From: Sulfuricurvum sp.
GTDB lineage: Bacteria > Campylobacterota > Campylobacteria > Campylobacterales > Sulfurimonadaceae
NCBI RefSeq assembly: GCF_028710345.1
Contig: NZ_JAQTUH010000001.1
Location: 62,001 to 126,000 of the forward strand
Direction: 5' to 3'
Length of the DNA stretch: 64,000 nucleotides
Positions 10,500-28,978 of this stretch are shown here, piece by piece. The first letter of the stretch is position 1. Every line of letters starts with the position of its first letter. The position numbers and the translations under genes are program-made. A model generated the notes under the pieces. The model searched no databases. It worked only from the letters and a program-made list of their open reading frames with translations, and was not told where the DNA came from.

Positions 10500-10601
10500 G
10501 AAAACTCTCCTAATAGGAATTTTCAGTTTACGTTGTAACACTCAATGGATTAAAAATGGATAGAAATAGAAAAGTAAGGGGGAAGTTTAAGAAAATTGTG
10601 A

Positions 10602-10689: not shown

Positions 10690-10719
10690 GTGAGAAAAGT
10701 GAATATTTTTTTACATTGG

Positions 10720-10793: not shown

Positions 10794-10806
10794 ACCTATG
10801 TAATGT

Positions 10807-10893: not shown

Positions 10894-10902
10894 AACGATA
10901 AC

Positions 10903-10952
10903 AAAAAAATATCCCAGCTCAAACATCCAAAAAAGAGTGTTTCAACTGGGAT
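10903..10952 (-). terminator. Intrinsic terminator between tRNA-Gly and tRNA-Leu
   Basis: Read on the minus strand, ATCCCAG (10952-10946) pairs with CTGGGAT (10917-10911); a second five-base stem AAACA/TGTTT lies inside a 3x3 internal loop, and the structure is followed at once by ATTTTTTT (10910-10903). This is a textbook rho-independent terminator, placed inside the tRNA array so that only read-through or a separate promoter would express Leu-Cys-Ser. Confidence 0.75.
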
Positions 10953-10956
10953 ATTA

Positions 10957-11031
10957 TGGAGCGGGAAACGAGGTTCGAACTCGCGACCCCAACCTTGGCA
11001 AGGTTGTGCTCTACCACTGAGCTATTCCCGC
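10957..11031 (-). tRNA. tRNA-Gly (anticodon GCC)
   Basis: A 75-nucleotide tRNA with acceptor GCGGGAA paired to TTCCCGC, D arm AGCTCAGTGGTAGAGC, T arm GAGTTCGAACCTC and encoded CCA. The anticodon loop TTGCCAA carries GCC. It is the first gene of the array, about 20 bases downstream of a consensus-like promoter. Confidence 0.97.
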
Positions 11032-11050
11032 ATTGTTTTTGTGGACTGGA

Positions 11051-11079
11051 AGTATAGCAAAAAAAATAGGCGGTGTAAA
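11051..11079 (-). promoter_or_regulatory. Sigma-70 promoter of the tRNA array
   Basis: On the minus strand a -35 TTTACA (11079-11074) and a -10 TATACT (11056-11051) are separated by exactly 17 bases, with the first tRNA (Gly) beginning 20 bases after the -10. Both hexamers are close to consensus, unusual for this lineage, where -35 boxes are often weak. Confidence 0.85.
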
Positions 11080-11101
11080 GAGTTTTTAGAGAAAATTTCC
11101 G

Positions 11102-11107
11102 TATAAT
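11102..11107 (+). promoter_or_regulatory. Probable -10 box for ilvD
   Basis: A perfect TATAAT lies 70 bases upstream of the ilvD start and diverges from the tRNA promoter. No clear -35 box is seen, as is common in Campylobacterota. The predicted leader contains the hairpin at 11134-11153. Confidence 0.45.
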
Positions 11108-11132
11108 CACGGTAACATAATAATATGAGCTA

Positions 11133-11157
11133 GATTCTCACCTTCGTGGGAATGACA
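11133..11157 (+). repeat. GTCATTCC-type palindromic repeat remnant in the ilvD leader
   Basis: ATTCTCAC (11134-11141) pairs with GTGGGAAT (11146-11153) around a CTTC loop, flanked by ATGACA. Read in reverse it begins TGTCATTCCCACGAAGG, resembling the short GTCATTCC...GGAAT palindromes scattered between genes in many bacteria. Here it forms an 8-pair hairpin (one G-U) between promoter and ribosome site. Confidence 0.55.
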
Positions 11158-11176
11158 AAATATATAAGGATACTTC

Positions 11177-12865
11177 ATGCGCAGTGATACCATCAAACGG
11201 GGATTTGATAAAACCCCTCACCGAAGTTTGCTCCGTGCAACGGGTCTCAAAGACGAAGATTTCAACAAACCGTTTATCGGAGTAGCGAACTCCCACATCG
11301 ACATCATCCCGGGGCACTTTTTCCTCCAAGAATACGGTCGTATTGTCAAAGAGGCGATCCGTGAAGCGGGAGGCGTTCCGTTTGAGTTTAATACCATCGG
11401 TGTGGATGATGGTATCGCGATGGGGCATGATGGGATGCTCTATTCCCTCCCTAGTCGTGAGTTGATTGCGGACAGTATCGAGACGGTGATGAATGCCCAT
11501 AAGCTCGATGGGCTTATCTGTATCCCTAACTGTGATAAGATCGTTCCGGGGATGCTCATGGGTGCACTCCGCGTTAATGTTCCGACGATTTTTGTCTCAG
11601 GCGGTCCAATGAAGGCTGGGCATAAAAAAGACGGTACCCCGATCGATTTGGCAACGGCGTTTGAAGCGGTCGGCAAACATGCTGATGGTAAAATGAGCGA
11701 TGAAGAGCTCTATGAAATCGAGTGTGAAGCGTGTCCGAGTGGCGGGTCATGTTCAGGGATGTTTACCGCTAACTCGATGAATACCCTCTGTGAAGCGATG
11801 GGGGTGGCATTACCTGGGAACGGTACGGTTTTGGCGATGACTCCTGAGCGAATCGAGATGGTAAAAACAGCGGCGAAACGTATCGTCGAGATGGTTATGG
11901 ATGAAAACTCTAGTAAATGGAATATGCAAAATATTCTAAATGAAAAAGCGATCCATAATGCGTTCGTTGTCGATATGGCGATGGGTGGATCATCTAACAC
12001 CGTATTGCATATGCTCAGTATCGCTAAAGAGGCAGGTGTTGATTTCGATATTACCCAAATCAATAAAATCTCTGAAAACGTCGCACACATCGCGAAAATC
12101 TCTCCATCCCTCTCAACCGTGCACATGGATGACATCAACCGTGCGGGTGGGGTGAATGCCGTAATGAAAGAGGTCTCTCGACGCGGTGGAATCCTCCACA
12201 CCGATGCGATGACGGTTACGGGTGAAACACTCGGTGAGCGTATCAAAGATGCGGTGATTAAAGATGCTAACATCATCCATACCAATGAAAATGCCTACTC
12301 TCCGGTGGGTGGGCTCTCTATCCTTTTTGGCAATCTTGCGGAAGAGGGTGCAGTTGTCAAAACTGCGGGGATAACGCCGAATATGCGTAAGTTCAAAGGG
12401 AGCGCGGTTTGTTTTAACTCTCAGCAAGAGGCGATTGCGGGGATTGTAGGACATAAAGTCAAAGCAGGCGATGTCGTGGTTATCCGTTACGAAGGACCTA
12501 AGGGTGGACCGGGGATGCAAGAGATGCTCGCCCCTACAGCACTCATCATGGGGATGGGATTGGGTGAGAGCGTTGCTCTTATCACCGATGGACGTTTTTC
12601 GGGTGCGACACGCGGTGCCTCTATAGGGCATGTCAGCCCTGAAGCGGCTGAGGGTGGTTTGATCGCGTTGATTGAAGATGGTGATGAGATTGAACTCGAT
12701 GTCGATACCCATCTATTACAACTCAATGTGAGTTATGAGGTGTTGGAGCAACGCCGCCTCCATTGGAAACCGATCAAAAAAGAGATTCCGTCTAAATGGC
12801 TCAAACGTTACAGCCTCCTTGTCTCGAATGCTTCTAACGGTGCTGCCCTTAAAACCGAATTGTAA
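11177..12865 (+). CDS. ilvD: Dihydroxy-acid dehydratase
   Basis: Dehydrates 2,3-dihydroxyisovalerate and 2,3-dihydroxy-3-methylvalerate to the 2-keto acids in valine, isoleucine and leucine synthesis. The 562-residue length is that of the IlvD/Edd family. Visible signatures are the N-terminal [17 protein letters not shown], the cluster-cysteine segment [12 protein letters not shown], a second cysteine motif [17 protein letters not shown] (about residue 185) and the C-terminal [11 protein letters not shown], all expected for the iron-sulfur enzyme. The ATG at 11177 follows an AAGGA ribosome site (11166-11170). It stands alone, followed by a hairpin and the LpxH-like gene. Confidence 0.97.
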
Positions 12866-12911: not shown

Positions 12912-13667
12912 ATGAATGAGGATGTACTAAATTATCGTAGCGTATTTATCTCCGACCTCCACCTAGGTACTCGTGATGCACAGTCTGAGCAACTTTTAGA
13001 TTTTATCCGTCAAGTCGAATGTGAAAATCTCTATCTCGTCGGTGATATTATCGACGGATGGGAGCTCAGGCGCAATTGGCGATGGTCTCAAGCACAATCG
13101 GATGTACTCCAAAAAATCCTCCGAAAAGCCCGTAAAGGGACAAAAATCCACTATATTATCGGTAATCACGATGAGTTTTTACGCCCTTTTTTACCGATGA
13201 TTATGGGGGATAATATTACGATTAGCCATGAAAAAGTTCATTACGGTGCAAATGGCAAACACTATCTTGTTGTACACGGCGATATGTTTGATGCGGTAAC
13301 GATGACGAAAAAATGGGTTGCCCATTTGGGAGATTGGTGCTATCTTTTTATGCTTCGTCTTAACCGACCGATTAATACTGTTCGTCGATGGTTCGGGATA
13401 TATCATTATTGGTCACTCTCTAAAATGGCAAAACAGAGTGTTAAACAAGCGGTTAGCTTTATCACCGATTATGAGGATATCCTCTCCTCTCATGCTGAAG
13501 AAAAAGGGTTTGATGGGGTGATTTGTGGACATATTCATCATGCCGAAATGCGAAATATTAACGGTGTAGAATACCTTAATTGCGGTGATTGGGTTGAATC
13601 GTGTAGCGCCATAGTGGAACATTATAATGGACGGTTTGAGATTTATGAGCACAGTTCAATCCGTTAG
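12912..13667 (+). CDS. UDP-2,3-diacylglucosamine diphosphatase-like metallophosphoesterase
   Basis: A 251-residue calcineurin-like phosphoesterase with the full metal-binding series: SDLHLGTRD (about residues 14-22), VGDIIDGWELRRNWRW, IIGNHDEFLRP, VVHGDMFDAV and CGHIHHAE. The GDIIDGWxLRRxWxW pattern and the LNCGDWVESCSA segment match the LpxH-like group that cleaves UDP-2,3-diacylglucosamine to lipid X in lipid A synthesis, and this is the likely job. A related phosphoesterase with another substrate cannot be excluded. The 3' end overlaps the start of the next gene, implying co-expression. Confidence 0.8.
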   Translation: MNEDVLNYRSVFISDLHLGTRDAQSEQLLDFIRQVECENLYLVGDIIDGWELRRNWRWSQAQSDVLQKILRKARKGTKIHYIIGNHDEFLRPFLPMIMGDNITISHEKVHYGANGKHYLVVHGDMFDAVTMTKKWVAHLGDWCYLFMLRLNRPINTVRRWFGIYHYWSLSKMAKQSVKQAVSFITDYEDILSSHAEEKGFDGVICGHIHHAEMRNINGVEYLNCGDWVESCSAIVEHYNGRFEIYEHSSIR

Positions 13668-14154
13668 TATCGTCTTTTATAAAGGGGAGGGAACCTTAGC
13701 CGAAAAGATAATTCGTCTTTGGACTAAAAGTCCGTATGCCCATTGTGAATTTAGGCGAAGTGATGGGCTATTTCACTCTAATGATCGTTTTCGATTGATT
13801 TCTCGAACGCACACTATGGAGATTAATCCCCTCGATTGGGATGTCTGTGAAATCGAGCTACCCTATGAGATTATTGCGCGGGTTGAAGAGCGACAATTAG
13901 AAAAGAACGGGACGCAGTACGATTGGATCGGGATTTTCTTTTCGCAAGTTTTTCGATTAGGATGGCATAATAAAAAACGGTGGTTTTGTTCTAAAAGTAA
14001 TGCAGATGATTTAGTCTATGCGTATCGTTTGATGAGAGATTCTAATAACGAGAAATATTGCTCTTATTTAAACCGATTAGCAGTTTTTAAAGATTTGAAT
14101 CCGCATGAATGTTCTCCCCATACCCTTTATCAAGCATTAATACGCTCTCCATGA
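13645..14154 (+). CDS. Permuted papain-like (YiiX/NlpC-P60 type) protein
   Basis: A roughly 169-residue protein with an early SPYAHCEF histidine segment (about residue 28) and a later FCSKS cysteine segment (about residue 110). This His-before-Cys order is that of circularly permuted papain-like enzymes such as YiiX and the LRAT-like group, which act on amide or lipid ester bonds. The start is uncertain: ATG at 13645 (MSTVQSV) gives a sensible N-terminus, but an ATG at 13627 in the same frame is also possible. Both lie inside the LpxH-like gene, pointing to coupled translation. The end overlaps the convergent diguanylate cyclase by 25 bases. Confidence 0.65.
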   Translation: MSTVQSVSIVFYKGEGTLAEKIIRLWTKSPYAHCEFRRSDGLFHSNDRFRLISRTHTMEINPLDWDVCEIELPYEIIARVEERQLEKNGTQYDWIGIFFSQVFRLGWHNKKRWFCSKSNADDLVYAYRLMRDSNNEKYCSYLNRLAVFKDLNPHECSPHTLYQALIRSP

Positions 14155-15239
14155 TATTCGCAAACTCGATTTTTTCCTTCACCTTTTGCACGATATAAGG
14201 CGGTATCTGCTTGATCAATAAGGGTATAAATATCCAACGATGGGTTACAGAGGGTAACGCCAAAACTGCACGAGACTGTGATATCAAGAGGAAAAATAGT
14301 TTCTTGAATTTTTTCACGAATTTTTTCAGCTAAAACCAATGCATCGATTGATGTTGTCATTGATGCTAAGATTAAAAATTCTTCTCCACCCCACCGAGCA
14401 AAATGATCAGTTTTTCGTAATATAGAGTGTGTAATATCGGCAATGGTGGTCAATACTTCATCTCCAATATTGTGTCCATAAGTATCATTGATCAGTTTGA
14501 AATTATCAATATCGAACATAATTAACGTGAAAGGGGTCGAATATCGTTTTGCTTCTTCAAAATGATTTTCCAATATTTCATCCATTTGACGACGATTGTA
14601 AAGACCTGTTAAGGGATCAGTAGAAGAGAGACGTTCTAGCTCTGTGAGATAAATAGCTTCTTTCTTCCGTACTTCCGCAAGCGTCTCATTAGCTCTAGCT
14701 ATAGCCATTTCATATACGTATACAACATAAGTTAAGACAATAGATGCGATGCTAAAGCGTAAAAAAGAACGAATATTCCATCTCCCCTCATCCCATATTC
14801 CTATATGGTAGAAAGCCATAGAAAAGAGAATTAAATAAAAAAAAGAAGTAAGTGCTAATCCCTTTTTGTGTCCCATGAGAGTGATAACAAAAATAGGAAA
14901 AAAAATCGTCCAAATAAGCCCAAAATCGCTATTTTGATTGGTATAGGAGAAAGTGATAAAAAAAAAGAAAAAATTGGCTGTCCCTATGTAGACGGTACGG
15001 TTTAATTTTTTATTGACCTGTAGGTCAATGAGTGCACTAAAAGATATGATAGCTGCGGCAGTATCAAGGGTTCCTATAAAATAGGAATGAAAAATTACTA
15101 AATTAGTGTATGCAAACGTACTAAAAGCAAGCACCCCAATCAATAAAAAAGAATTGATCATCATTAATGATCGCATCATGCTCATCTCAATAGGTTCGAA
15201 GTTGGCGGTTAAAAAACGGTAAATTGACCCCTTGAGCAC
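14130..15239 (-). CDS. Membrane diguanylate cyclase (GGDEF protein)
   Basis: A 369-residue protein with about six N-terminal transmembrane helices (residues about 20-180), a short coiled coil and a C-terminal GGDEF domain beginning STDPLTGLYNRRQ. The catalytic motif is GGEEF, and an RKTD sequence five residues before it is a classical RxxD product-inhibition site, so this should be an active, feedback-controlled synthase of cyclic di-GMP. The start is GTG at 15239 with AAGGA about seven bases before it. No other output domain is present. It overlaps the 3' end of the papain-like gene on the opposite strand. Confidence 0.92.
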   Translation of the reverse strand: MLKGSIYRFLTANFEPIEMSMMRSLMMINSFLLIGVLAFSTFAYTNLVIFHSYFIGTLDTAAAIISFSALIDLQVNKKLNRTVYIGTANFFFFFITFSYTNQNSDFGLIWTIFFPIFVITLMGHKKGLALTSFFYLILFSMAFYHIGIWDEGRWNIRSFLRFSIASIVLTYVVYVYEMAIARANETLAEVRKKEAIYLTELERLSSTDPLTGLYNRRQMDEILENHFEEAKRYSTPFTLIMFDIDNFKLINDTYGHNIGDEVLTTIADITHSILRKTDHFARWGGEEFLILASMTTSIDALVLAEKIREKIQETIFPLDITVSCSFGVTLCNPSLDIYTLIDQADTALYRAKGEGKNRVCEYHGERINA

Positions 15240-15326: not shown

Positions 15327-17093
15327 TTAAGAAGTGTGGTTGAACTCAGGTACAATCTCACGTAACGCTTCAATTGGAGCATTGCTTTTTATAAGCTCTT
15401 CGATATCTTCTTTTAATTGTTCAATCGGATAGTGCGTCGAACCGGCAATCAAGATAGAGTCAAAAGCTGTTTTTTGTTCGCTATCATTAATCAATAACTC
15501 TTCATACAATTTTTCTCCGGGGCGTAATCCGGTATAAACAATCTCTATAGGTTGTGATGCGTAAAGACGAATCATGGTTTCAGCCAAATCGGCAATTTTA
15601 ACGCTTTCTCCCATATCAAGGATGAAAAGCTCCCCTCCACGCGCAATAGCTGCCGCTTGAAGGACGAGCTGACACGCTTCACTAATGAGCATAAAGTAGC
15701 GGGTGATATCGGGATGGGTAAGGGTGATGGGACCTCCGCTATCGATTTGGGCTTTAAATTTCGGGATGACACTTCCGCTAGAGCCAAGGACATTACCAAA
15801 TCGGACGGCAACGATTTCGCTGTTTTTCGGATTAACATTTTGGGCATAAAGTTCAACAACCCGTTTGGATGCACCCATCACATTGGTCGGTCGTACCGCT
15901 TTGTCGGTAGAGATAATGACGATTTTAGTCACGTTGTGCTCAATGGCGGTATCGATAACATTACGGCTTCCGAGTATATTATTAGTAAGTGCGGCATTGA
16001 TATTATCTTCACACAAAGGTACATGTTTGTATGCTGCGGCATGGATCACGATATCGGGTTTGGATGAGAGGAATAGAGTATTTAGGGGCTCTTTATCTAA
16101 AATATTGAGAAGTCGTAAGGTGGCGTGAGGGAGCTTTTCTCCGATTTGATAAAGATTGTATTCACTGTGATCAACAAGTAGGAGTTTAGTTGCACCGAAC
16201 GCATGACATTGTAGGGCTATCTCACTCCCGATACTTCCTCCAGCACCGGTTATTAAAACAGTTTTATTACGGATGAAACTCTCGATAATCGGAGTATCGA
16301 GGTCTTTTGGATGACGTGCAAGTAAATCTTCGATAGAGAAGTCTTGAATCATCCTGTCTTCGAGGAGGGAAGAGCGTTTGATAGTATGAATACCAAGCGT
16401 GTTGAGTTGTTGGTAGGTGTCGCGTAATATCTCTTGTGGAAGCGTTCCGTCGATGATTGCAGCGGAAATATTTTTGGATTGTATTAATGTAGGTAGATCA
16501 TCAATCCCTGATATTTTAATGTTTCCGATGGTAGAGCGAATCATATTAAAATTCTTTGGCTGGATAGCGATAATACCGACAGGATAGTAGGTGAGTGGAT
16601 TGTCTAACAAAGTTTTGATAAGTGAGGCTGTATGGGGAGAAATTCCGATGATGAGGGTTAGTTTGTGAGAAGATTGTTTAGACTGGCTTGATAAAATTCG
16701 TTTTGATAATCTTAGTATTCCTACTAATGTTAGCGAGAGGATAAAATCAATACCGATTACACTTCTTGGCATGGGTAAGAATATGGTTGAATCCAACCAA
16801 TAGAGGATAAAAAATGCAAACGAAGAAACAATTAGGGCATAAAAAAGTCGTTTGGCATCATCTAAACCAAAAAATCGCCACGTAAGTCGATAAATACCAA
16901 AGAGATAACAACTTCCCAATTTTAAGAGTGTTAATACAAAAAATACGGTATAAAATTTTACCATGTGTTCAGTGGGAATATTAAAATCAAATCGCAATTC
17001 GTAGGCAAAACGGAGTGATAAGAAGAAAAGGATAAAATCAGCCAATAAAAAAAATACAAACCGTTTAAAAAAACTGGGGGTTAATAAATTCAT
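15327..17093 (-). CDS. pglF: UDP-GlcNAc 4,6-dehydratase, membrane-anchored (PglF/WbpM/FlaA1-CapD family)
   Basis: A 588-residue protein, the length of C. jejuni PglF. Four N-terminal transmembrane helices (about 1-130) precede a nucleotide-binding-like domain and a C-terminal SDR dehydratase with VLITGAGGSIGSE (about 275-290), DKAVRPTNVMGASKR, where Met replaces the usual active-site Tyr as is normal in this family, and GLRPGEKLYEELL. It converts UDP-GlcNAc into UDP-4-keto-6-deoxy-GlcNAc, the precursor of bacillosamine, QuiNAc and FucNAc. It is the last gene of the glycosylation operon, and its start overlaps the preceding stop (ATGA). Given its neighbours, WbpM is an equally good name. Confidence 0.88.
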   Translation of the reverse strand: MNLLTPSFFKRFVFFLLADFILFFLSLRFAYELRFDFNIPTEHMVKFYTVFFVLTLLKLGSCYLFGIYRLTWRFFGLDDAKRLFYALIVSSFAFFILYWLDSTIFLPMPRSVIGIDFILSLTLVGILRLSKRILSSQSKQSSHKLTLIIGISPHTASLIKTLLDNPLTYYPVGIIAIQPKNFNMIRSTIGNIKISGIDDLPTLIQSKNISAAIIDGTLPQEILRDTYQQLNTLGIHTIKRSSLLEDRMIQDFSIEDLLARHPKDLDTPIIESFIRNKTVLITGAGGSIGSEIALQCHAFGATKLLLVDHSEYNLYQIGEKLPHATLRLLNILDKEPLNTLFLSSKPDIVIHAAAYKHVPLCEDNINAALTNNILGSRNVIDTAIEHNVTKIVIISTDKAVRPTNVMGASKRVVELYAQNVNPKNSEIVAVRFGNVLGSSGSVIPKFKAQIDSGGPITLTHPDITRYFMLISEACQLVLQAAAIARGGELFILDMGESVKIADLAETMIRLYASQPIEIVYTGLRPGEKLYEELLINDSEQKTAFDSILIAGSTHYPIEQLKEDIEELIKSNAPIEALREIVPEFNHTS

Positions 17094-18043
17094 AGGAACT
17101 CTTTTTTCGAATCGACAAAATAGAGTAGTTTAGCTAATAATAAAAGTGTAACTCCTAAAATAACAAGAAAATATTTTTCCGGAGTTATTAGTAGTAAACC
17201 AAACAGGGTAAGATTAAAAACAAGTCCAAGTAAAACGATGTTTTGATGACTCCATTTTGCTAAGTGTAAGCGTTGATACATATGTTTCTTGTGTGCTACG
17301 GAGAGTTTTTCATGGTTTAACCATCGTCTGATAAGGGTTATGGTAGCATCAAACCAAAAGAGACTTAACACAACAAGCCATCCTGAAAAATGGAGTGTTG
17401 ATGCATCGTGTATCATATAAATTGCAAAGATAAAACCAAGAGAGGTGCTTCCGACATCACCCATAAAAATGGAAGCTTTTGGTCGATTAAAAAGTAAAAA
17501 ACCAGCGGTAGCGGGTATTATAAAGAGAAGAGTCGGCTCTTTGAAGAGGGTAAAGGCAGCTATGGATACAAAAATAGTTTGGCTTGCGGCATACCCATCT
17601 ATTCCATCAAGAAAGTTATAAAGATTAGTAAACCATACAATCATCAGGAAGGCAATCCCATTTAACCACATACCATGTAGTGTGAAAAAACCAAATTGAA
17701 TTTCATTCACCCCTCCTAAGATGAGTAATACGGTTAGTGCACTTAGTATTTGAACGCTTAAGCGTACATAAACAGGTAGTGGTTTTATATCGTCGAAAAA
17801 TCCAATAATAGCGATAGGAACCCCCATGCATATAGCCCAAAAAAGTTGAGATTCTATAAATGCATGGTAATAGAAGAAAGCGGTGTAAAAGGTAATAATA
17901 ATAGCAACTCCACCGCCTCTTGGAGTTGAAATCGTGTGGGAGCTTCGCTCGTTGGGTATATCAATCAATTTGAGCACAGATGCATATTTTCGAATGATAA
18001 AAGTGATGATAATAGAAAGGGCGAAAAGGATAAGATAGATCAT
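17090..18043 (-). CDS. Undecaprenyl-phosphate HexNAc-1-phosphate transferase (WecA/WbpL/TagO family)
   Basis: A 317-residue polytopic protein with about ten helices of the MraY/WecA superfamily. The signatures are GFFDDIKPLPVYVRL (about residue 80), NLYNFLDGIDGYAASQ, FNRPKASIFMGDVGST (about 190) and a cytoplasmic HKKHMYQRLHL loop. It transfers a HexNAc-1-phosphate to undecaprenyl phosphate, starting a lipid-linked glycan. This replaces the small monotopic PglC that begins the C. jejuni N-glycan. Its position between an epimerase/reductase and a WbpM-type dehydratase is like P. aeruginosa wbpV-wbpL-wbpM, so the sugar is probably FucNAc or QuiNAc rather than GlcNAc (inference). Confidence 0.88.
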   Translation of the reverse strand: MIYLILFALSIIITFIIRKYASVLKLIDIPNERSSHTISTPRGGGVAIIITFYTAFFYYHAFIESQLFWAICMGVPIAIIGFFDDIKPLPVYVRLSVQILSALTVLLILGGVNEIQFGFFTLHGMWLNGIAFLMIVWFTNLYNFLDGIDGYAASQTIFVSIAAFTLFKEPTLLFIIPATAGFLLFNRPKASIFMGDVGSTSLGFIFAIYMIHDASTLHFSGWLVVLSLFWFDATITLIRRWLNHEKLSVAHKKHMYQRLHLAKWSHQNIVLLGLVFNLTLFGLLLITPEKYFLVILGVTLLLLAKLLYFVDSKKEFL

Positions 18044-18906
18044 TTCTCCCCTCGAATCATCTTTGTAAATGCAAGATGGATAGGTATTTTGGCATAATCT
18101 CCCAGTTTTTCTTGTGCGTAGGAATCATCGATAATTAGGGAAGAAAAAAGTTTATAGAATGGTAATGATTGAAATTTACAGAGCCATCGAATAAGGAACT
18201 CCGGAAGTGGTAGGATGTAGCGTTTGATCTTCATGTTGAGGATTATCAGTTCGGTTATCTCTTGGATTGATGGCATAGTATGATCACGGAGTAGAATGAC
18301 CCCTTTTGGTTTAGAGCGAACTGTTGCCCATAAGGCGGTGACTAGATTATCAATGTAGATAAGGGAACGCTGATTTTTATTGTATCCTAAGGGAAGTATA
18401 GGAAGGGTACGAATGATTTTCTGGAGTTGCTTCATATTGCCTGGGGTATTGTATCCGTAAACTATTGGGGGACGGATGATTGTAACGTGAAATGTGTCGT
18501 TCTGAATGTTTTGTAACGCACTATCAGCTTCGTATTTACTTTTAGCATATAATGTGTCGGGATACTCTGCGGTTTTTAAATCAATATGCAAGGCTGTTTT
18601 ACCATATACGGCAATGGTACTCATTTGTATAAAATGTTGTATACAGGCCTCTTTTGCTTTATGTGCTAAAAATAGAGGAAGATCGGCATTAATACGATGG
18701 ATAAGATTGGGGTCTTTGATAGAATCATGAACAGCTGCGGTAAAATTTATGATGGTATCAAAACCTTTAAATGTGTCGGATGTAAGATGGAAATAATCAC
18801 GAAGTGATGAATCACGTCGTAGAATAACACATTGTATATTAGGAGGAGAACTTGCAACAAATGCTTTTGCAATTGTACTGTTCCCCCCAATAACTAATAT
18901 TTTCAT
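18040..18906 (-). CDS. NAD(P)-dependent sugar epimerase/4-ketoreductase (WbpV-like SDR)
   Basis: A 288-residue extended SDR protein: nucleotide-binding loop GGNSTIAKA (about residues 7-15, replacing the usual GxxGxxG), the SDR active site YAKSK (YxxxK), IIRPPIVYG, and a substrate loop LPLGYNKNQRSLIYIDNLV typical of UDP-hexosamine enzymes. Genes of this kind beside a WbpL-type transferase reduce UDP-4-keto-6-deoxy-HexNAc to UDP-QuiNAc or UDP-FucNAc, which I infer here. It overlaps the transferase gene by four bases and starts six bases after the oligosaccharyltransferase stop on the same strand. Confidence 0.8.
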   Translation of the reverse strand: MKILVIGGNSTIAKAFVASSPPNIQCVILRRDSSLRDYFHLTSDTFKGFDTIINFTAAVHDSIKDPNLIHRINADLPLFLAHKAKEACIQHFIQMSTIAVYGKTALHIDLKTAEYPDTLYAKSKYEADSALQNIQNDTFHVTIIRPPIVYGYNTPGNMKQLQKIIRTLPILPLGYNKNQRSLIYIDNLVTALWATVRSKPKGVILLRDHTMPSIQEITELIILNMKIKRYILPLPEFLIRWLCKFQSLPFYKLFSSLIIDDSYAQEKLGDYAKIPIHLAFTKMIRGEK

Positions 18907-18912
18907 GCACGT

Positions 18913-21039
18913 TTAAATTTTTAATCGATAAATTTTTGTCATCGGGTCAAGTGATACAGGCTCAAAAAGATTTTTATCATAATGTTCAAAAATAAACATT
19001 TGAAAATAGGTTGAATGGAGATAAAAATCATCAACTACCAAAAACTTACCATAGCTTGCTAGGTAGATTACATTAAGTCCCTCAGAAGCAAACGATTGTT
19101 CATTTGTTTGGAGTTTGTTGTCTTGAACATATCCTACTTGATAAAAAGATTTTATCGGTACTTCTTGTGCCCCTAGTTTAAGGGTGTTTTTTGCTTTGAT
19201 GATAGATATTCCCTGACCCAAATCGATACTTTCTCCATTATCATGAATTGTATCGGAAGCATAGAAAAAAGGTTGTTGACGATTATCCGGTGCTTTTAAG
19301 TCGAGATTACTAAATAATGCTACTGTTGGGAAAATTTCCATCATTCGAAGCGGTAAATAGAGGTAAACATTATGTGCTTTTGTCGGTAGTTTGTACTCAG
19401 GCAAGGCAATAGAGGTTAAAAGCTCATCGGGGTCATTATACCCTTCTTTCGTCATCATGTACTCAAAATCGGTCGAAAAAGTTTTATTGTTTTCCGTAAA
19501 ACCTTTTTCCGTATATTCTGTATAAAGTCGCATCATGTGTGCAGCGGATAGTTGATCTTGAGCAGTTAAAACAAAAGATGCCGGATAGTTGACGTCACCA
19601 GAGTGTTTACCTCCATCAACCCATGTTTTGACATCTGCGTAATAACGGATAGGATAGCCAAAATCCCACCATGTCACGACGTAATCTTCTCGAGTGGTTA
19701 TATCTTTGAGTTTTACTAAAGGAGCAACTTCATTTTTTTGCATAACAGATGGTACTTTATAATCTAGGACATGAAGGATGTTGGGAATAGTTAGTAGAAT
19801 AGTGAGTATTCCAGCTAAAAGAATTTTGACAAATTTTGATGAAACAAACTGACTGATGACGATAATAACATAACCCATACCAAGTGTAAATAGTGGGACT
19901 GCATAAATAGTAAAACGGAGCCCACCCCAAATAGCAAACATCCCTAGCCCAAATAGTGGAAGGGTAAGTAACATAAGTCGATAACGCCAAAGCAGTAAAG
20001 CGTACCCCACTAACCCGAGAAAAAAACTGATTACATGACCACTGATACGCTCTGCAAGTGTTTCGAACGGAATATGTCCTGCCTCTCGTACCGTCTCCAT
20101 AACATTATAAAAATGTAAAGTTGCTACGGAAGTTGTTGTACTTCCGTTGCGTAGGGCATAAGCATCAAAAAGGTTAATAATCGGGGTAAATCCACCTGTT
20201 GCCAAGAATACAATAAGTGTTAGTGCGAGAGCTCCGTATTCAAGGTGTTTTATACGACCTTTTTCGAAATGAAAAACAAGAAAAAGAGTTAATGAAAATA
20301 ACACTTTGAGTAAAATTGCAATTTGTGAAATCCCGATGAGATAAAACGCAATTAGTTTATAGTTGAATTTGTTCGTTCGTTCAAATATCAGTGTATATAA
20401 AAGCAGCCCAATACCAAGAGCAGCACTTAATGTATAGCTACTGTTGTACCACCATCCATAAGCAATGACCCCTAGTGTAGGAATCAGCAAATATCGGTTA
20501 CGCTGAGCTATAAGGGCAAATAGGATTCCCCATACGATAAAAAGAGGGAGCACGATATTGAGCATATCGGTATCATAGTATCCAACCATGGTTCGGTTGT
20601 AGTAGCTGTAGGTAATAGAAGCTAAAACTGCACCGATGAACCCGGCACCACTTTGACCAAAAAGACGACTGATTAAAATTATAGGAATAACTATTAACGA
20701 ACCAAGAACTGCAGGCATATAAAAGATAATAGATTCGAATGAAAAAGGGAGTGCTTTTGCAAAAATAGCTGTCAGAATTGCTGGAGCCATCTCTATTGGG
20801 CTTAGATCGTTTGGTTGGTGGGTACCGCTTAGAATATCTCTCGCCCCTTCTGCCCAGTAGTAGCCATCATTGGTATTGATCATAAATTGATCATTCCATA
20901 TAAAAGGGTCAGTTCCGTGAAATTGGTATACCCATATTAAGCGTATGGATAAACTAAATAGAAAAGCGATAATAATGAGTAAAGTAAGTTGTGCTTTGGT
21001 GATAGTATCTGAAAACTTTGGATGTAAATATTGTTTCAT
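18913..21039 (-). CDS. pglB: Undecaprenyl-diphosphooligosaccharide-protein glycosyltransferase (PglB/STT3)
   Basis: A 708-residue oligosaccharyltransferase that moves a lipid-linked glycan to Asn in D/E-X-N-X-S/T sequons in the periplasm. There are 13 or so N-terminal helices and a soluble C-terminal domain from about residue 435. Conserved features are the first acidic motif TNDGY with D58, GYYDTD at 154-158, E319 in the flexible loop and the WWDFG motif at 457-461, the same position as WWDYG in C. jejuni PglB. A sequon (E516-N-N-K-T) lies in its own soluble domain. It overlaps the GT9-like gene upstream (ATGA). It is the defining gene of the locus. Confidence 0.95.
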   Translation of the reverse strand: MKQYLHPKFSDTITKAQLTLLIIIAFLFSLSIRLIWVYQFHGTDPFIWNDQFMINTNDGYYWAEGARDILSGTHQPNDLSPIEMAPAILTAIFAKALPFSFESIIFYMPAVLGSLIVIPIILISRLFGQSGAGFIGAVLASITYSYYNRTMVGYYDTDMLNIVLPLFIVWGILFALIAQRNRYLLIPTLGVIAYGWWYNSSYTLSAALGIGLLLYTLIFERTNKFNYKLIAFYLIGISQIAILLKVLFSLTLFLVFHFEKGRIKHLEYGALALTLIVFLATGGFTPIINLFDAYALRNGSTTTSVATLHFYNVMETVREAGHIPFETLAERISGHVISFFLGLVGYALLLWRYRLMLLTLPLFGLGMFAIWGGLRFTIYAVPLFTLGMGYVIIVISQFVSSKFVKILLAGILTILLTIPNILHVLDYKVPSVMQKNEVAPLVKLKDITTREDYVVTWWDFGYPIRYYADVKTWVDGGKHSGDVNYPASFVLTAQDQLSAAHMMRLYTEYTEKGFTENNKTFSTDFEYMMTKEGYNDPDELLTSIALPEYKLPTKAHNVYLYLPLRMMEIFPTVALFSNLDLKAPDNRQQPFFYASDTIHDNGESIDLGQGISIIKAKNTLKLGAQEVPIKSFYQVGYVQDNKLQTNEQSFASEGLNVIYLASYGKFLVVDDFYLHSTYFQMFIFEHYDKNLFEPVSLDPMTKIYRLKI

Positions 21040-21980
21040 TCGGATGTTCCTATATAGGTTATTAACTTTTTTTTCTCTTTTTCATCGAGGTGAAATGGTG
21101 GATTTAAATAATTGAGCACATATTTTTGATTACATCTTAACAATCGTCCCCGAAAAAGGATATGCGAAGGCTTATTATATAGTAAAAATAGGTGCATTCC
21201 AAAGGCATCAAAGGAAACATTGTGAAGAACATTGTTGGATGCATACAAAATAAAAAGTTCTTCAACGGAAAGTTGACCACGTAAATCGATATCAACAAAA
21301 TTGTAAAACTCGGGATCGTGCAGTTTCTCTTGTTCTGTACCCGTATGGATAATCTGCATATTACCTTCATGCGCAATCTTGAGTGCGGTTTGTGCTAGGT
21401 TGTTGAGATCATTTTTAGTGATGAGAAATCGCGATGATGCAAGGTAATTATTAAAGATAAGATACTTTTTGGAAGGGTCAAGAAAATGACTTAGTGTTTC
21501 AAAAGTAGGGATAGAGGGTTTTGAGGAGGTGTTTTTAGGATTAAGTTGCAGTAGTGTTGCCACATGTTCTAAAAAATAATTACAAATAGGTTGATTGATT
21601 CTGTTCTCGGTGGTATCAAGAATCAACAGTGTTTTTGAAATTTGTTTTAAAAGAGGGTAAAACTCGATTCTGCTGATGATTAGATCATAATGAGAGGGTT
21701 CGAAATGTTTTGGAACTATAACCCCTATACGTTCAAAATAAAAGTTCATTTGAGGAAGAGGGATAATCTCAACCTCTATATGGTTGTCTCGCATGAGTCG
21801 AACGAGAGGTTCTATAAAAAAGTGATCTCCTAAATGGAACCGTTTGGGATCGTTAAAATAAAAAAGTACTTTTGAAATGATGGGAGGGGGATTGATAAAA
21901 TAGACTCCGGATACGACTTTTGATTTAGAAAGAGATAGCTTGGAAAGATACTTTTGGATAAATCGTTTCAATGTTAACAT
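21036..21980 (-). CDS. Glycosyltransferase-like protein, probably GT9/heptosyltransferase fold
   Basis: A 314-residue cytoplasmic protein with an N-terminal FHLGDHFFIEPLVRLMRD segment that resembles the GDxxxxTPxL region of GT9 heptosyltransferases and a C-terminal region IIHTGTEQEKLH and DLRGQLSVEELF like the nucleotide-sugar-binding half. The late GGx acceptor motif of true heptosyltransferases is not obvious, so the call is a divergent family member. It lies between another GT9 gene and pglB with overlapping ends, so it most likely adds a sugar to the lipid-linked glycan. The sugar is not predictable. Confidence 0.6.
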   Translation of the reverse strand: MLTLKRFIQKYLSKLSLSKSKVVSGVYFINPPPIISKVLFYFNDPKRFHLGDHFFIEPLVRLMRDNHIEVEIIPLPQMNFYFERIGVIVPKHFEPSHYDLIISRIEFYPLLKQISKTLLILDTTENRINQPICNYFLEHVATLLQLNPKNTSSKPSIPTFETLSHFLDPSKKYLIFNNYLASSRFLITKNDLNNLAQTALKIAHEGNMQIIHTGTEQEKLHDPEFYNFVDIDLRGQLSVEELFILYASNNVLHNVSFDAFGMHLFLLYNKPSHILFRGRLLRCNQKYVLNYLNPPFHLDEKEKKKLITYIGTSE

Positions 21981-22999
21981 GGTGAGCTCTTTTGTAGAGT
22001 TTGAATCATATTTAAAACGGAAGATACACTAATTTGTTTCATGCAAAGATTATTATCACATGTGTATGCACGCCCTTTTATTCCGTGTAATGGGATATAG
22101 CATGGGGAACATTCCATTGAGGATACGATTGAAAATTGGTGTTTACCTATGGGATTAGCTGCTTCAGATGGAGTTGGACCGAACAACCCTACTGTCGGTT
22201 TATCCATTGCGGCGGATAAATAGAGAAGTGAACTGTCATTACCAAGATAGAGACACGATTTTTGAAGAATTAATGCAGTTTCATCAAACGTAGTTTGATT
22301 GACGAGATTAATACAATGTGGTAACTCTTTCATAACCAAAGAGGCCAGATAGGTATCTTCCTCCCCATTTCCCAATAAAACAATCGGCATAGAGAGCTGT
22401 TTGAAAAGTTCAATATACGATTGAGTCGGCCAACGGCGATTGGGCATACTGCTATGAATATTTGAGGCACCACTTATATTACAGGCTAAAAATTGTGAAG
22501 GGAGTTGATGGGTTATCGTTGCTGTGGGAGAGGGATAATACTCTAACCCTTCCCCCATTTTTAAAGCAGGTTCAAATTTTTGTGCCAATATAAACTCTTG
22601 TACTGTTCGATTGATAGTATTGTGGTTATAGGAGATAGAGATGGTTAAAAATCTTGACATGCGGTTGTTAAACCCTATCGTTGTTCTAATTCCCGCTATT
22701 TTAGAAAGTATTTGAAAAAGTGGATGAATGTGGAGGATAAGTGCCGCATCATATCTGTCACGTCTCATGATACGAAATAGTCTCCAGATGGTTCGGATAT
22801 TTTGGAATAACGATTTTGAGGGGAAAGTATGGATGATAGCATGTTCCTTAATGTGGGGATTGTGTTGGGTGATAATCGCACAATTTTCCATGACGAGGTG
22901 ATGCACTTCATAGTTCAGGCTCGCAAAGTGGCTAAAAAGAGGTGTTGAAGCTAAAACATCTCCTAAGCTAGCAAGTTTAATAATGAGGAGTTTTTTCAT
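21974..22999 (-). CDS. Glycosyltransferase family 9 (heptosyltransferase-like)
   Basis: About 341 residues with clear GT9 features: N-terminal IIKLASLGDVLASTPLF, SSMPNRRWPTQSYIELFKQL before the donor site, VLLGNGEEDTYLA and the C-terminal YLGNDSSLLYLSAAMDKPTVGLFGPT. These enzymes use ADP-heptose or related donors in lipopolysaccharide cores; here the locus implies use in the protein glycan or a shared surface glycan. The start is placed at the ATG ending 22999 (MKKLLIIKLASLGD), with GAG nine bases upstream; an upstream in-frame extension of 21 codons would run into the previous gene and lacks family similarity. Confidence 0.85.
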   Translation of the reverse strand: MKKLLIIKLASLGDVLASTPLFSHFASLNYEVHHLVMENCAIITQHNPHIKEHAIIHTFPSKSLFQNIRTIWRLFRIMRRDRYDAALILHIHPLFQILSKIAGIRTTIGFNNRMSRFLTISISYNHNTINRTVQEFILAQKFEPALKMGEGLEYYPSPTATITHQLPSQFLACNISGASNIHSSMPNRRWPTQSYIELFKQLSMPIVLLGNGEEDTYLASLVMKELPHCINLVNQTTFDETALILQKSCLYLGNDSSLLYLSAAMDKPTVGLFGPTPSEAANPIGKHQFSIVSSMECSPCYIPLHGIKGRAYTCDNNLCMKQISVSSVLNMIQTLQKSSPC

Positions 23000-23009
23000 A
23001 ACCATTTTC

Positions 23010-23966
23010 TCAAGAACCGATAAGTCGAAAAAAGTCGCGTACTCCGCGAAACATTGCATCACGAGTTGCTATTCGACCTTGGATGCTAAAGAGGAGTGTA
23101 CGAATGAATTTAATACCGATAAAAAAGGTGAGAAAAAAGAAAAAACCTATTTTTTTCTTATGCTTATAGTGATACAAAAGCCGATTTCGTGTCCCATAAT
23201 AGTATGAAAAAGGGGCAAAATCACCACCGGTTGAACGACCAATTTTGTGATAGATTATACTCTCACGTGCTACAAAATTTTGATAACCGTTTTCACGAAG
23301 GGTAGTACAGTAATCGCTATCTTCAACATAAAGAAAGAAACGCTCATCCATAAAGCCAAATTTTTGAATTAGAGTTGTAGGTATCATCATTAAGCAACCG
23401 CTAATAAAGGGTGATTCCCGATAAGGGTTTGAAAAGAGATCAGTGGAGTGTATCGCTTCACGGTACCACCCGATTTTTCCTCCTGAAAACCAAATACGAT
23501 TTGGCTCATCGGCATATCGTATAATCCCTCCGACTATACCGGCTTTTTCTTCATAGTGATAAACATTGAGGAGGGGTTCTATAAACTTTGGTTCGACGAT
23601 GGTATCGTTATTGAGAAGAAGAACATAATCTGCACTATTATTTAGTGCGTATCGAACTCCCGTTGCATTGCCGCCAGCAAAACCATAATTTTGATTATTG
23701 TTGATGATGGTTATTTTATTGGATGATTGTTTGCTATCAGATTCATTAATCAATAAATATCCATAAGATTCTGCCCATAAACAAATCTCATGAAGTGAGT
23801 TATCGGTAGAAGCATTATCGATGAGAAGTAACTGAAAGTTTTGGTATCCATTTTTAAGGACGCTTTCTGCACATTCAATAGTGTCATACGAGTTATTGTA
23901 GTTTAAAACAATAATCCAAACAATACTATCTGAATTACAAGGCAAGATTAAACGCTTATGTGTCAT
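23010..23966 (-). CDS. Glycosyltransferase family 2
   Basis: A 318-residue GT-A glycosyltransferase: the nucleotide-binding start WIIVLNYNNSYDTIEC, LLIDNASTDNS, NQNYGFAGGNATG, and the DxD-like LLNNDTIVEP (about residue 115), followed by ISGCLMMIP and an EDSDYC catalytic segment. The pattern fits the rhamnosyltransferase-like GT2 branch, although the sugar is not predictable. A hydrophobic patch near the C-terminus suggests membrane association. It overlaps the preceding GT2 gene by 11 bases within the glycan operon. Confidence 0.87.
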   Translation of the reverse strand: MTHKRLILPCNSDSIVWIIVLNYNNSYDTIECAESVLKNGYQNFQLLLIDNASTDNSLHEICLWAESYGYLLINESDSKQSSNKITIINNNQNYGFAGGNATGVRYALNNSADYVLLLNNDTIVEPKFIEPLLNVYHYEEKAGIVGGIIRYADEPNRIWFSGGKIGWYREAIHSTDLFSNPYRESPFISGCLMMIPTTLIQKFGFMDERFFLYVEDSDYCTTLRENGYQNFVARESIIYHKIGRSTGGDFAPFSYYYGTRNRLLYHYKHKKKIGFFFFLTFFIGIKFIRTLLFSIQGRIATRDAMFRGVRDFFRLIGS

Positions 23967-24912
23967 ATTTTTTTAACTTTTTTATGATATTAATCATAAT
24001 ATTTAGCGGAAAGGAAGGAAGAATGGAAATAATGAAAAGTACAAAGATAGAATAATTTTTTAATGCTATTGAAAATATGCTCTTATATGTACTAAAAATT
24101 TTATAATTATAATAACCGTCACTTCTTAGTGTTAAAAGATTTTTGAGTTTAAAAAGCTTCGTTTTGTTGTTGTGCTGCTGTATTGCGAATAGTTTGTTTT
24201 CAAGTGTGTATTGTGGAGGTAAAGAGAGGATAAAATTGGACCAGCGTACTATCCATATATCAAATGTATAAGGTCTCCAACTTGTTTTTCTGATACCAGG
24301 CAATTGTATTTCATGAGTGTAGCATTCTTGTAACCATAAAACAAAAATATTTTTTTGTTTTGCAAGTGTTTCAAAAATAATACCTGTTTGAATAAAGTTT
24401 GTATCATAGTATCTATCAAATAATGCTTGTTCTATTATCTTTTTATTGTAAATCAAAGAGGCTATTTGGGTCATGTGCCATCCAAGATTCTTTAGCAGAG
24501 CATTTTTATCTCTAATGATCATTTCTGAAACATTAGTGACCCTAGCATTACTATTAACAATAATCATATCGTAGTCTAAATTTAACTGTTTTATGATTTC
24601 AATTAAACTTTTAGCAGGAAAAATGGCGGTATCACCTAAAAGCCAAACAAATTTTGTATTTGGATATTTGAGTGCAATTTCAAAATTGAGTTCACCTAAA
24701 TTGGTTTCATTTTTATAATAATACAGTAGGGAATATTTTTGTTGCCATTTTTCTACTACTTGTTTTGTCGAATCGGTAGAAGCATTATCGGAAATAAATA
24801 TTTGAATATTGAATTTTCTTACAAGAGGAATATGAATTTCAAGACAATAATCTAAGAAATCAGAACGGTTATAGGTTGGGATGGTAATTGATAAAAATGG
24901 ATTAGCGATCAT
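23956..24912 (-). CDS. Glycosyltransferase family 2
   Basis: A 318-residue GT-A enzyme with LSITIPTYNRSDFLDYCL at the N-terminus, QIFISDNASTDSTKQ, ETNLGE and a VWLLGDTA segment where a DxD-like acidic residue binds the metal-nucleotide. The C-terminus (about 285-310) contains a hydrophobic helix. The base composition is visibly more A+T-rich than in flanking housekeeping genes, as is usual for exchangeable glycan genes. Its start overlaps the flippase stop by four bases (ATGA). The donor sugar is unknown. Confidence 0.85.
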   Translation of the reverse strand: MIANPFLSITIPTYNRSDFLDYCLEIHIPLVRKFNIQIFISDNASTDSTKQVVEKWQQKYSLLYYYKNETNLGELNFEIALKYPNTKFVWLLGDTAIFPAKSLIEIIKQLNLDYDMIIVNSNARVTNVSEMIIRDKNALLKNLGWHMTQIASLIYNKKIIEQALFDRYYDTNFIQTGIIFETLAKQKNIFVLWLQECYTHEIQLPGIRKTSWRPYTFDIWIVRWSNFILSLPPQYTLENKLFAIQQHNNKTKLFKLKNLLTLRSDGYYNYKIFSTYKSIFSIALKNYSIFVLFIISILPSFPLNIMINIIKKLKKYDT

Positions 24913-26222
24913 AATACAGAATCTCTCTTTCTATATTTTTTAAATATCATTATAACCCAAGGTATTCCCCATAGGTAACTGCTTAAAAATGCAATAAAAA
25001 AATACTCAAAAGGTAAATACAGTGCTATGAGCCATGTTGTAGTGGTAATATAAACTCCACTTATAAATGAGGGTATTGCGAGAGGTTCCTCTTTGTGTGC
25101 ACGTATATATAAAGCCAAGCTATTTATGGTAATTTGCATTAACCAACTTAAAGAAAGTATAGTCAGTGAAAATGGGTTCACAAGTCTATCAGCAAAATGT
25201 AGATATTTTCCAAGAAATATGACGGCGATGAAAAGTACGGTTATCACTAACATATAGGTAAGAATGGCTAAACTAAGATGCTTTTTAAATATAAAATCCA
25301 GTGTTTCATAATCTTGATGTGCAACTAGTATATTTATTTTAGGTGTAATGATAGTTATCCAAATATTTGAAATACCATATATTGCAGTACAAACAGCAAT
25401 ACTAAGACCAACTTTGCCTGCTTCTACGGCACCGTAATAGTGAAAGGCTATAGGGGTAAAAATAAAAAAGATAAAATACCCACTAGCCCAACTGATAGCG
25501 TATTTACCCATAAGTGGCAATAGTTCATATTTCCAGCTATGTGATATCTTAGTACCAAGCCCATGTAGCTGTTTTAACATACGTGCATATCGATAAAAGA
25601 TAAGCATTGTACCGCTTAGTGTACCGATGCATAGTGAAACGGTTAATGCGTAAAGTCCTGAACCTATCATAAGAAAAATAACAGTAGAGATAATGGTAAT
25701 AAAAGAGATTAAAAATCGTATTTTTTGAACTTCTCCTACGCTATTGCATCCTTCGATAAACGATAGCAGAATACTATTGATAAAAGCCAATACGGAAGCC
25801 ATAACATAAATAATCCAGGGTAAACCCCACAATACTGTGGTGTATTTTTGACTGAGTATCACAAATCCTGAGAATAAAATAATTGGGAATGTTAAAAGCC
25901 CAATACCCCACGACCACTTCATCGCGAATCGAAGCAAGCTAGCTATTCTTTCTAAATGTAAGTGGTTACCGGATAACGTTTTATCGGATTCAAATTTTAA
26001 ATGAGCGAATTCATGTGCTGAGAATTGAAGAAGTATGGTTGAGAATCCCATATCTGCAAATACAGCTAATGCTGCAAGACTTGTAAATGTATACCAATAA
26101 CCTTGAGTTTCAGCATTTAAATATAAAGGAATTAAAGCAAGAAGTGCAAGTCCTGAAAAAAGTCGCCAAGTTTGATTTATAGCTGCATAACGAAAATCAA
26201 GATTTAAAACTATTTTGAACAT
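24909..26222 (-). CDS. Polysaccharide flippase (Wzx-like, MATE/PST family)
   Basis: A 437-residue protein with about 12 hydrophobic helices and no soluble domain. Its N-terminus (INQTWRLFSGLALLALIPLYL), followed by QGYWYTFTSLAALAVFADMGFSTILLQF, matches the start of O-antigen flippases. It is the first gene of the nine-gene minus-strand locus, so the lipid-linked glycan would be flipped by a Wzx protein and not by an ABC-type PglK as in C. jejuni. Sequence identity in this family is low, so substrate cannot be read from the protein. Confidence 0.82.
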   Translation of the reverse strand: MFKIVLNLDFRYAAINQTWRLFSGLALLALIPLYLNAETQGYWYTFTSLAALAVFADMGFSTILLQFSAHEFAHLKFESDKTLSGNHLHLERIASLLRFAMKWSWGIGLLTFPIILFSGFVILSQKYTTVLWGLPWIIYVMASVLAFINSILLSFIEGCNSVGEVQKIRFLISFITIISTVIFLMIGSGLYALTVSLCIGTLSGTMLIFYRYARMLKQLHGLGTKISHSWKYELLPLMGKYAISWASGYFIFFIFTPIAFHYYGAVEAGKVGLSIAVCTAIYGISNIWITIITPKINILVAHQDYETLDFIFKKHLSLAILTYMLVITVLFIAVIFLGKYLHFADRLVNPFSLTILSLSWLMQITINSLALYIRAHKEEPLAIPSFISGVYITTTTWLIALYLPFEYFFIAFLSSYLWGIPWVIMIFKKYRKRDSVL

Positions 26223-27171: not shown

Positions 27172-27177
27172 TATAAT
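27172..27177 (+). promoter_or_regulatory. Probable -10 box for the AsnB-like gene
   Basis: A perfect TATAAT ends 19 bases before the ATG, followed by a purine-rich ribosome site AAAAAAAGGGA (27184-27194 region). No -35 consensus is evident. The leader would be very short. Confidence 0.45.
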
Positions 27178-27196
27178 GTCGAAAAAAAGGGATGGT

Positions 27197-28978
27197 ATGT
27201 GCGGAGTATTTGGTATTATCGGTAACTACTCACCCCATCGCGCACGTGAAGCATTAAAAACGTTACACCATCGCGGTCAAGATCATTGCGGTATTATCGA
27301 AGAAGAGGGGTTGTTTTTAGCCCATCACCGCCTCTCGATTACCGATAATCATCCCCGTTCCCATCAACCGATGCGCCATAAACAACTCCTTTTGAGTTTT
27401 AACGGGGAGATATATAACCACAAAGCGTTGCGTCACGAGCTTGATTATCCGTGGCAAACCTCCAGTGATGCCGAAGTTGTTTTAGCGGCGTATGAGAGGT
27501 GGGGGATAGAAGCAATCCACCGTTTTGAGGGGATGTTTGCGTTCGCGCTGATTGATGGAGAGAAACTTTATTTGGTACGTGATCGATTCGGTAAAAAGCC
27601 GATGTTTTACCATCAAAACGGTGAATCATTTAGCTTTGCTTCCGAAATCAAAGCCCTCCGACCGTTTTTGAAAACTCTGCAAATGAATCGTGACGCGATG
27701 CGCTCCTATCTCTCATTTCTAGCGCCCACCCCACCCCATACGTTTTATGCGGGGATTGAAAAGCTCCAATCGGGGGAATATCTCTGTTTTGAGAGGGGAA
27801 AAATCACCAAAACAACCTATTATGACCTTTCACACACCTCTTCGACTAGCTCCAAAACACTCGAAGAACTGCTTCATGAAAGTATCCACAAACGGCTCGA
27901 TACTGAGGTCGGGGTAGCGGCACTGCTCTCCGGCGGTATTGATAGCGCAATGATCTGTGCAATCGCCTCTCAACAGGGAAAAAGGCTCCCAACGTTTACC
28001 TTGGGATACGATGAATACAGTGGATACGATGAACGGGTAAACGCTAAAGCTACGGCAGAATTTTTAGGGTTAAAAAATACCGAGGTGGTGATTTCACGCA
28101 CCGATTTTGACTCCTGTTTGGATGAGGTGTTAGATCAAATGGATGAACCGCTCAATGATCCCGCTGCATTACCCCTCTATTTACTGATGAAAAAAATTAG
28201 CTCAGATGGGTACAAAGTCGTTCTCAGCGGTGAAGGTTCGGATGAGCTATTTTTAGGGTATCGGCAGTATTTTGAGTATCTCGATATCGAAAAAGCGGCA
28301 TCACTCCATCACAAAAATTGGCTCAAAAAATATTTTCACAGTAATTTTTCGATGAATCGTGAGTGGGAGTGGTATAAGCGGATTTTTGATGAGACCCTCC
28401 TTTTTCGAACATCGGGAGAAAAATTTACCGATTTGCAACAAAATCTCTTATTGCGTGAAAATGTACGTGATAATGAATCGCTCCGATTTTTACAACCCTA
28501 TCGTGAGAGTTTTGCCCAAAGTGATTTCTCGCACCCATCGCATTGGTATAGTTTTATCGATTTGAAACTTTTTGTCGGGGAACATTTTCTGAGTAAACTC
28601 GATTCCGTATCGATGGCACATACGCTCGAAGCTCGAACCCCCTTTTTGGATCATACGTTAGCGGAGCGTGTCTTTGCTAAATCTCCCGAAGAGCGGATCG
28701 GAGAGGGTGGAACAAAATATCTACTCAAACAGTTGGGAAAAAAGTATCTAAATGATGAGATTTTAAATCGCCGTAAAAAAGGGTTTGCAAATCCCTATAT
28801 GGAGTGGCTGATTGCATCAGGACGTCTGGAATTGATACGAGAAGTGAATGAAAAAACGGGGCTATTTTATCCCGAAGAGATTGAAAAATATATAGATTTA
28901 GCACGCCGAGGGAAATTTAAACAGCATAGCTGGGGACTCTATGTCCTCAGCCATTGGATAAAGCGGGAGTTGCTATAA
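27197..28978 (+). CDS. asnB: Glutamine-hydrolysing asparagine synthetase-like amidotransferase
   Basis: About 593 residues. The start is set at ATG 27197 because class II amidotransferases need the Cys at position 2 (MCGVFGIIG) that becomes the N-terminal nucleophile. The glutaminase domain contains HHRGQDHCG, HHRLSI and FNGEIYNH; the synthetase domain has the pyrophosphate loop ALLSGGIDSAM (about residue 246), LSGEGSDELFLGY and LEARTPFLDH. It makes Asn or amidates a related carboxylate using glutamine and ATP. Adjacent glycan loci often carry such paralogues for amidated sugars, so the substrate may be a uronic acid instead of Asp. Confidence 0.88.
   Translation: MCGVFGIIGNYSPHRAREALKTLHHRGQDHCGIIEEEGLFLAHHRLSITDNHPRSHQPMRHKQLLLSFNGEIYNHKALRHELDYPWQTSSDAEVVLAAYERWGIEAIHRFEGMFAFALIDGEKLYLVRDRFGKKPMFYHQNGESFSFASEIKALRPFLKTLQMNRDAMRSYLSFLAPTPPHTFYAGIEKLQSGEYLCFERGKITKTTYYDLSHTSSTSSKTLEELLHESIHKRLDTEVGVAALLSGGIDSAMICAIASQQGKRLPTFTLGYDEYSGYDERVNAKATAEFLGLKNTEVVISRTDFDSCLDEVLDQMDEPLNDPAALPLYLLMKKISSDGYKVVLSGEGSDELFLGYRQYFEYLDIEKAASLHHKNWLKKYFHSNFSMNREWEWYKRIFDETLLFRTSGEKFTDLQQNLLLRENVRDNESLRFLQPYRESFAQSDFSHPSHWYSFIDLKLFVGEHFLSKLDSVSMAHTLEARTPFLDHTLAERVFAKSPEERIGEGGTKYLLKQLGKKYLNDEILNRRKKGFANPYMEWLIASGRLELIREVNEKTGLFYPEEIEKYIDLARRGKFKQHSWGLYVLSHWIKRELL

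Follow-up and report, generated by a model that had tools for sequence, protein, structure and literature searches.

The operon analyzed here, a pglB locus of Sulfuricurvum sp. (assembly GCF_028710345.1) lying in a 64,000-nucleotide stretch of contig NZ_JAQTUH010000001.1 that we call the window, has several close counterparts among described systems. With the pgl system of Campylobacter jejuni it shares an oligosaccharyltransferase PglB with all motifs, PglF, and a lipid-linked oligosaccharide that would be built stepwise and moved en bloc; it differs in that its genome has no PglC, PglD or PglE, a polytopic phosphoglycosyltransferase of the WbpL/WecA type (PNPT) and a reductase being encoded instead, and in that the operon has a Wzx and not PglK. 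With the wbpV/wbpK-wbpL-wbpM genes of Pseudomonas aeruginosa, where WbpL starts O antigens with N-acetyl-D-fucosamine (D-FucNAc) or N-acetyl-D-quinovosamine (D-QuiNAc) (PMC3726653), it shares a reductase, a polytopic transferase, and a membrane dehydratase in identical order, but the window's cassette would feed PglB rather than a polymerase and ligase, its dehydratase is a resident PglF, and its reductase is divergent. C. jejuni PglB is able to transfer glycans whose reducing-end sugar is FucNAc or QuiNAc (PMC3866875), and the Helicobacter pullorum PglB1 pathway makes a native N-glycan that starts with N-acetylhexosamine (HexNAc) and not with N,N'-diacetylbacillosamine (diNAcBac) (PMC6025236), so native PglB glycans need not begin with bacillosamine, although there, unlike in the window, PglC is the initiator. 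Functional PglB proteins are also reported from Nitratiruptor tergarcus and Sulfurovum lithotrophicum, both non-pathogenic Campylobacterota (Mills et al. 2016, as described in PMC6025236); it is in genera related to these that we find the wbpL module here. A literature search that did not cover the deep-sea-vent study of Mills et al. 2016 returned no report of PglB coupled to a polytopic initiator.

The pglB operon and its genome

The operon (15327-26222, minus strand) comprises nine tightly packed, co-directional genes with intergenic distances of -53 to +6 bp, transcribed in the order wzx, two genes of glycosyltransferase family 2 (GT2), one of family 9 (GT9), an orphan, pglB, a short-chain dehydrogenase/reductase (SDR), the PNPT, and a PglF/WbpM-type dehydratase. 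From its domain content, gene order and phylogeny we read it as a probably functional locus for N-linked protein glycosylation in which the initiation module has been exchanged. We are confident of two things jointly, that the initiation cassette was replaced and that the PNPT belongs to a dedicated clade, and we favor, with moderate confidence, QuiNAc or FucNAc as the predicted reducing-end sugar.

The 708-residue PglB (18913..21039, minus strand) matched the Pfam STT3, STT3-PglB core and C-terminal domains, all above cut-off, was also matched in NCBIfam, and aligned over its full length with C. lari PglB (5ogl, E-value 1e-147). It retains TNDGY, YYDTD at 154, WWDFG at 457 and MMEI at 566, as well as the equivalents of E319 and R331 of C. 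lari PglB; thus the domains, DxD-type loops, WWDxG, M-x-x-I and the arginine for the -2 acidic residue that define an STT3/PglB protein are all present, and the first-pass annotation was right to credit this PglB with every active-site motif. As the R331 and E319 equivalents are kept, we would expect a sequon with an acidic -2 residue. The genome encodes this one PglB, which in our tree falls in a genus clade with 22 bacillosamine-type rows and seven rows having a reductase and PglC' (SH-like approximate likelihood ratio test 100). In one of the roughly 160 related loci that made up our comparison set (L128:9414-11534, genome G034), pglB reads as two open reading frames with stops between them.

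Directly downstream of pglB on the minus strand, as first annotated, lie the genes for the reductase (18040..18906), the PNPT (17090..18043) and the dehydratase (15327..17093), each overlapping the next by 4 bp. That PglC, PglD and PglE are not among the neighbors was likewise correct, and a complete canonical set is not encoded elsewhere in the genome either (3.01 Mb in 46 contigs, 100% complete, 4.5% contamination), so the genomic finding that the annotation named as one that would refute it did not turn up. No protein in the 3.01 Mb matched PF02397, the PglC superfamily, in a search that was positive for 110 of 151 relatives, so the genome has no PglC and no WcaJ/WbaP-type initiator. A genome search for PglE gave as its best match a DegT aminotransferase 33% identical to the query, versus 57-66% for the PglE of most genus relatives, and the best match to PglD in the genome spanned only 84 residues. 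When a PglK-like protein from a relative's locus was used as query, the top full-length matches were generic ABC transporters (24-29% identity). Three PNPTs are encoded: MraY, a WecA-like enzyme on contig 22, and that of the operon. Remnants of pglC, pglD or pglE in the operon are ruled out by its overlapping genes, which leave no room, and mis-binning of the contig is ruled out by its length of at least 460 kb and by the ilvD synteny that it shares with the genus.

A retained PglF, a PglB-linked PNPT, and module exchange

The 588-residue dehydratase matched C. jejuni PglF/WlaL (5bju) with an E-value of 4e-120 over 338 residues and has the M-xxx-K active site. In the dehydratase tree it lies inside a six-row PglF clade of the genus (support 96; 100/98 in a more careful tree), separate from its counterparts in other WbpL loci. 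Judged by this placement, the window's "WbpM" is the genus's own PglF, retained from a bacillosamine-type ancestor. The first-pass annotation had read the three genes after pglB as a cassette like wbpV-wbpL-wbpM; gene order and tight packing agree with that description, but import of the whole triplet is ruled out by the nesting of the dehydratase. Since both this protein and PglB fall in bacillosamine-type clades of the genus, PglF appears to have been kept and only the pglC-D-E part exchanged.

The 317-residue PNPT belongs to Pfam Glycos_transf_4 (PF00953) and carries DD, NFLDGIDG, GDVGS, and an H-rich loop; with these conserved Asp and His motifs it is separate from MraY and WecA. Its best NCBIfam match is WecA, far below the cut-off. 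Counting a PNPT gene as PglB-linked when pglB lies within 10 kb, a tree of 49 homologs placed the window in a clade that is entirely PglB-linked (97/89 and 99/88), inside a 12-row clade (100/99) in which 11 are so linked; the larger O-antigen WbpL clade is mostly without pglB at that distance. After 18 rows and an outgroup had been added, 23 of 25 members of the window's group were PglB-linked, one of the two exceptions sitting at a contig end, versus 10 of 38 in the O-antigen clade. Supporting this, when loci from named genomes were picked by PNPT similarity alone, pglB stood beside wbpL in 16 of the closest 19 (from Sulfurovum, Sulfurospirillum, and other Campylobacterales). That a WbpL lineage linked to N-glycosylation exists across several Campylobacterota families is well supported by these phylogenies. 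Three further genomes (G001, G039, and G059) have pglB but no PF02397 protein. Apart from MraY, their sole PNPT is a WbpL encoded at a different locus, which would therefore have to initiate there too.

The equivalent chromosomal site in relatives is marked by the conserved flanking gene ilvD (11177..12865, plus strand, in the window). Beside it, loci L127 and L133 carry pglB-pglC-pglD-pglE-pglF, and L084 has an otherwise canonical set whose pglC (10576-11190) is broken by in-frame stops. Comparison with these loci gives good support to the view that in the window the reductase and PNPT genes were substituted for pglC-pglD-pglE while pglF was retained. Such an exchange is chemically reasonable, since diNAcBac and QuiNAc or FucNAc all derive from the product of PglF. 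A third module, found in seven loci of the genus, combines a reductase and a different monotopic transferase with pglB and a dehydratase, without pglD or pglE; its analog, and not that of the window's module, is CapD-CapN-CapM of Staphylococcus aureus, a dehydratase, reductase, and monotopic transferase that give a FucNAc start, albeit of a capsule and not an N-glycan. Loci L050 and L070, from two close species, have different modules at the equivalent site: identity is 91% for PglB and 97.5% for ilvD but only 46% for the initiators, so module exchange is recent and repeated; here it took in the dehydratase (68% identity) as well.

The reductase and the first sugar

In the pathway that we favor, PglF, the ancestral component, would convert UDP-N-acetylglucosamine (UDP-GlcNAc) to UDP-2-acetamido-2,6-dideoxy-4-keto-hexose, which the SDR would reduce at the 4-keto group to UDP-QuiNAc or UDP-FucNAc, replacing amination by PglE and acetylation by PglD. 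The PNPT, in the place of PglC, would then move the sugar phosphate onto undecaprenyl phosphate, three or four transferases would lengthen the glycan, Wzx would flip it, and PglB would transfer it to D/E-X-N-X-S/T sequons.

The reductase, in the wbpV/wbpK position, has 288 residues and is an SDR with Y120xxxK124 and the RSxxYIxNL block of its family. Its structural model (predicted local distance difference test score 85) resembles the GDP-4-keto-6-deoxymannose reductase RMD (TM-score 0.74) and RmlD, but epimerases too, and its NCBIfam and PDB matches are to mixed SDRs, which give no choice between QuiNAc and FucNAc. On these traits the protein may be an ortholog of WbpV/WbpK. From this model it is plausible that the protein acts as a 4-ketoreductase.

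Several observations weigh against a QuiNAc or FucNAc start. The dinucleotide motif of the reductase is GGNSTIA, versus GANGFIG, and the protein is so divergent (26-36% identity, branch length 4.27) that it behaves as a long-branch outlier with no firm place in its tree. Five sister genomes with PglB-WbpL-WbpM loci (L075 in G004, L078 in G043, L126 in G025, L135 in G401, and L140 in G268) gave no reductase homolog at E<=1e-20, and because WbpL occurs there without it the first sugar is not readable from the clade as a whole. There is also the second WecA-like PNPT on contig 22, and the versatility of WbpL itself, which in initiating the common polysaccharide antigen (CPA) of P. aeruginosa uses GlcNAc.

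A start with GlcNAc is for that reason possible: the PNPT would transfer GlcNAc-1-phosphate like WecA, and the sugar made by PglF and the reductase would be internal. The role of WbpL in CPA initiation (PMC6804347), the PNPT's top match to WecA, the reducing-end HexNAc in H. pullorum (PMC6025236), and the sister loci without a reductase all fit this, but we consider it unlikely, because the PNPT has stayed next to PglF/WbpM in almost every locus of its clade, which would be odd unless a PglF-derived sugar were used, and because the enzyme on contig 22 is already there as a separate WecA-like protein. Those same five reductase-less genomes could instead mean that the PNPT puts PglF's 4-keto sugar straight on the lipid, where the SDR reduces it, and that without a reductase the glycan starts with another C4 form. 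Rhizobium etli WreU/WreQ reportedly work in this manner, the 4-keto sugar being transferred to lipid and reduced there; we regard this as doubtful for the window, as reductases of other SDR families could be provided below our detection threshold.

We think it very improbable that the product of the operon is an O unit of lipopolysaccharide, with pglB as a mere passenger. Many relatives do have a wbpV-wbpL-wbpM-like block in polysaccharide loci that lack pglB within 10 kb, but a Pfam scan of the operon found no polymerase (wzy) or ligase (waaL) gene, the PNPT clade is PglB-linked, and pglB is mid-operon, overlapping the preceding gene by 4 bp and 6 bp from the reductase gene. That genes elsewhere still provide for diNAcBac synthesis, with the PNPT transferring this sugar, can be practically dismissed, for although the genome has other DegT aminotransferases, the best is the distant PglE match given above, and PglD and PglC are missing.

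Other genes of the locus and implications

The first operon gene (24909..26222, minus strand) encodes a 437-residue O-unit flippase-like protein matching NCBIfam NF041503, WZX_like (E-value 4.6e-25, under its cut-off). The Wzx-type flippase of the first-pass annotation is therefore present, but it is not diagnostic in the place of PglK, since the bacillosamine-type locus L084 also has, by our reading, a Wzx-like flippase. The window's Wzx is 69% identical to those at L168:15609-16919 and L169:16050-17357, loci of another family that use reductase-wbpL-wbpM-pglB, and the GT2 proteins encoded beside them are ~45% identical to the window's, so these loci and the window likely have parts of their glycans in common.

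Following wzx on the same strand are a GT2 gene with a weak PglI-like match (23956..24912; PF00535, NF050050 weak), a rhamnosyltransferase-like GT2 gene (23010..23966; PF00535, TIGR01556 below cut-off), and a heptosyltransferase-like GT9 gene (21974..23062; PF01075), whose real start is probably ~60 nt inside the called frame. The prediction of about four further sugars thus stands for three recognizable transferases; the fourth would be the orphan 314-residue protein (21036..21980, minus strand), a possible glycosyltransferase, which had no Pfam or NCBIfam match, no homolog among 298 other genomes of the order, and an uninformative single-sequence fold model (score 38.6). Between ilvD and the operon (13627-15239) we read a small protein (plus strand) and a GGDEF diguanylate cyclase (minus strand); in relatives pglF nearly adjoins ilvD. 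Divergent beside the operon is an AsnB-type amidotransferase gene (27176-28978, plus strand), with similar genes inside the pgl operons of L127 (3249-5054) and L135 (11522-13336), and its product may serve uronamide sugar synthesis, as WbpS of H. pullorum would suggest by analogy.

It could well be, though we would put it no higher than an even chance, that Campylobacterota N-glycosylation is modular at the first sugar: PglB and usually PglF would stay while three modules (pglC-D-E, reductase plus WbpL, and reductase plus a second monotopic transferase) swap at one site, an N-glycosylation-dedicated polytopic WbpL lineage would span several families, and its reductase-less members may start glycans with a sugar so far unreported for the substrates of PglB. 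The window's glycans probably start with a sugar other than the textbook Campylobacter one. Because PglB recognizes its donor at the reducing-end sugar, natural systems that combine a changed first sugar with PglB and PglF from bacillosamine-using relatives would show how oligosaccharyltransferase specificity evolves, and they may be a source of PglB enzymes adapted by nature to glycans of the QuiNAc/FucNAc type, a frequent component of O antigens, for use in glycoconjugate engineering.

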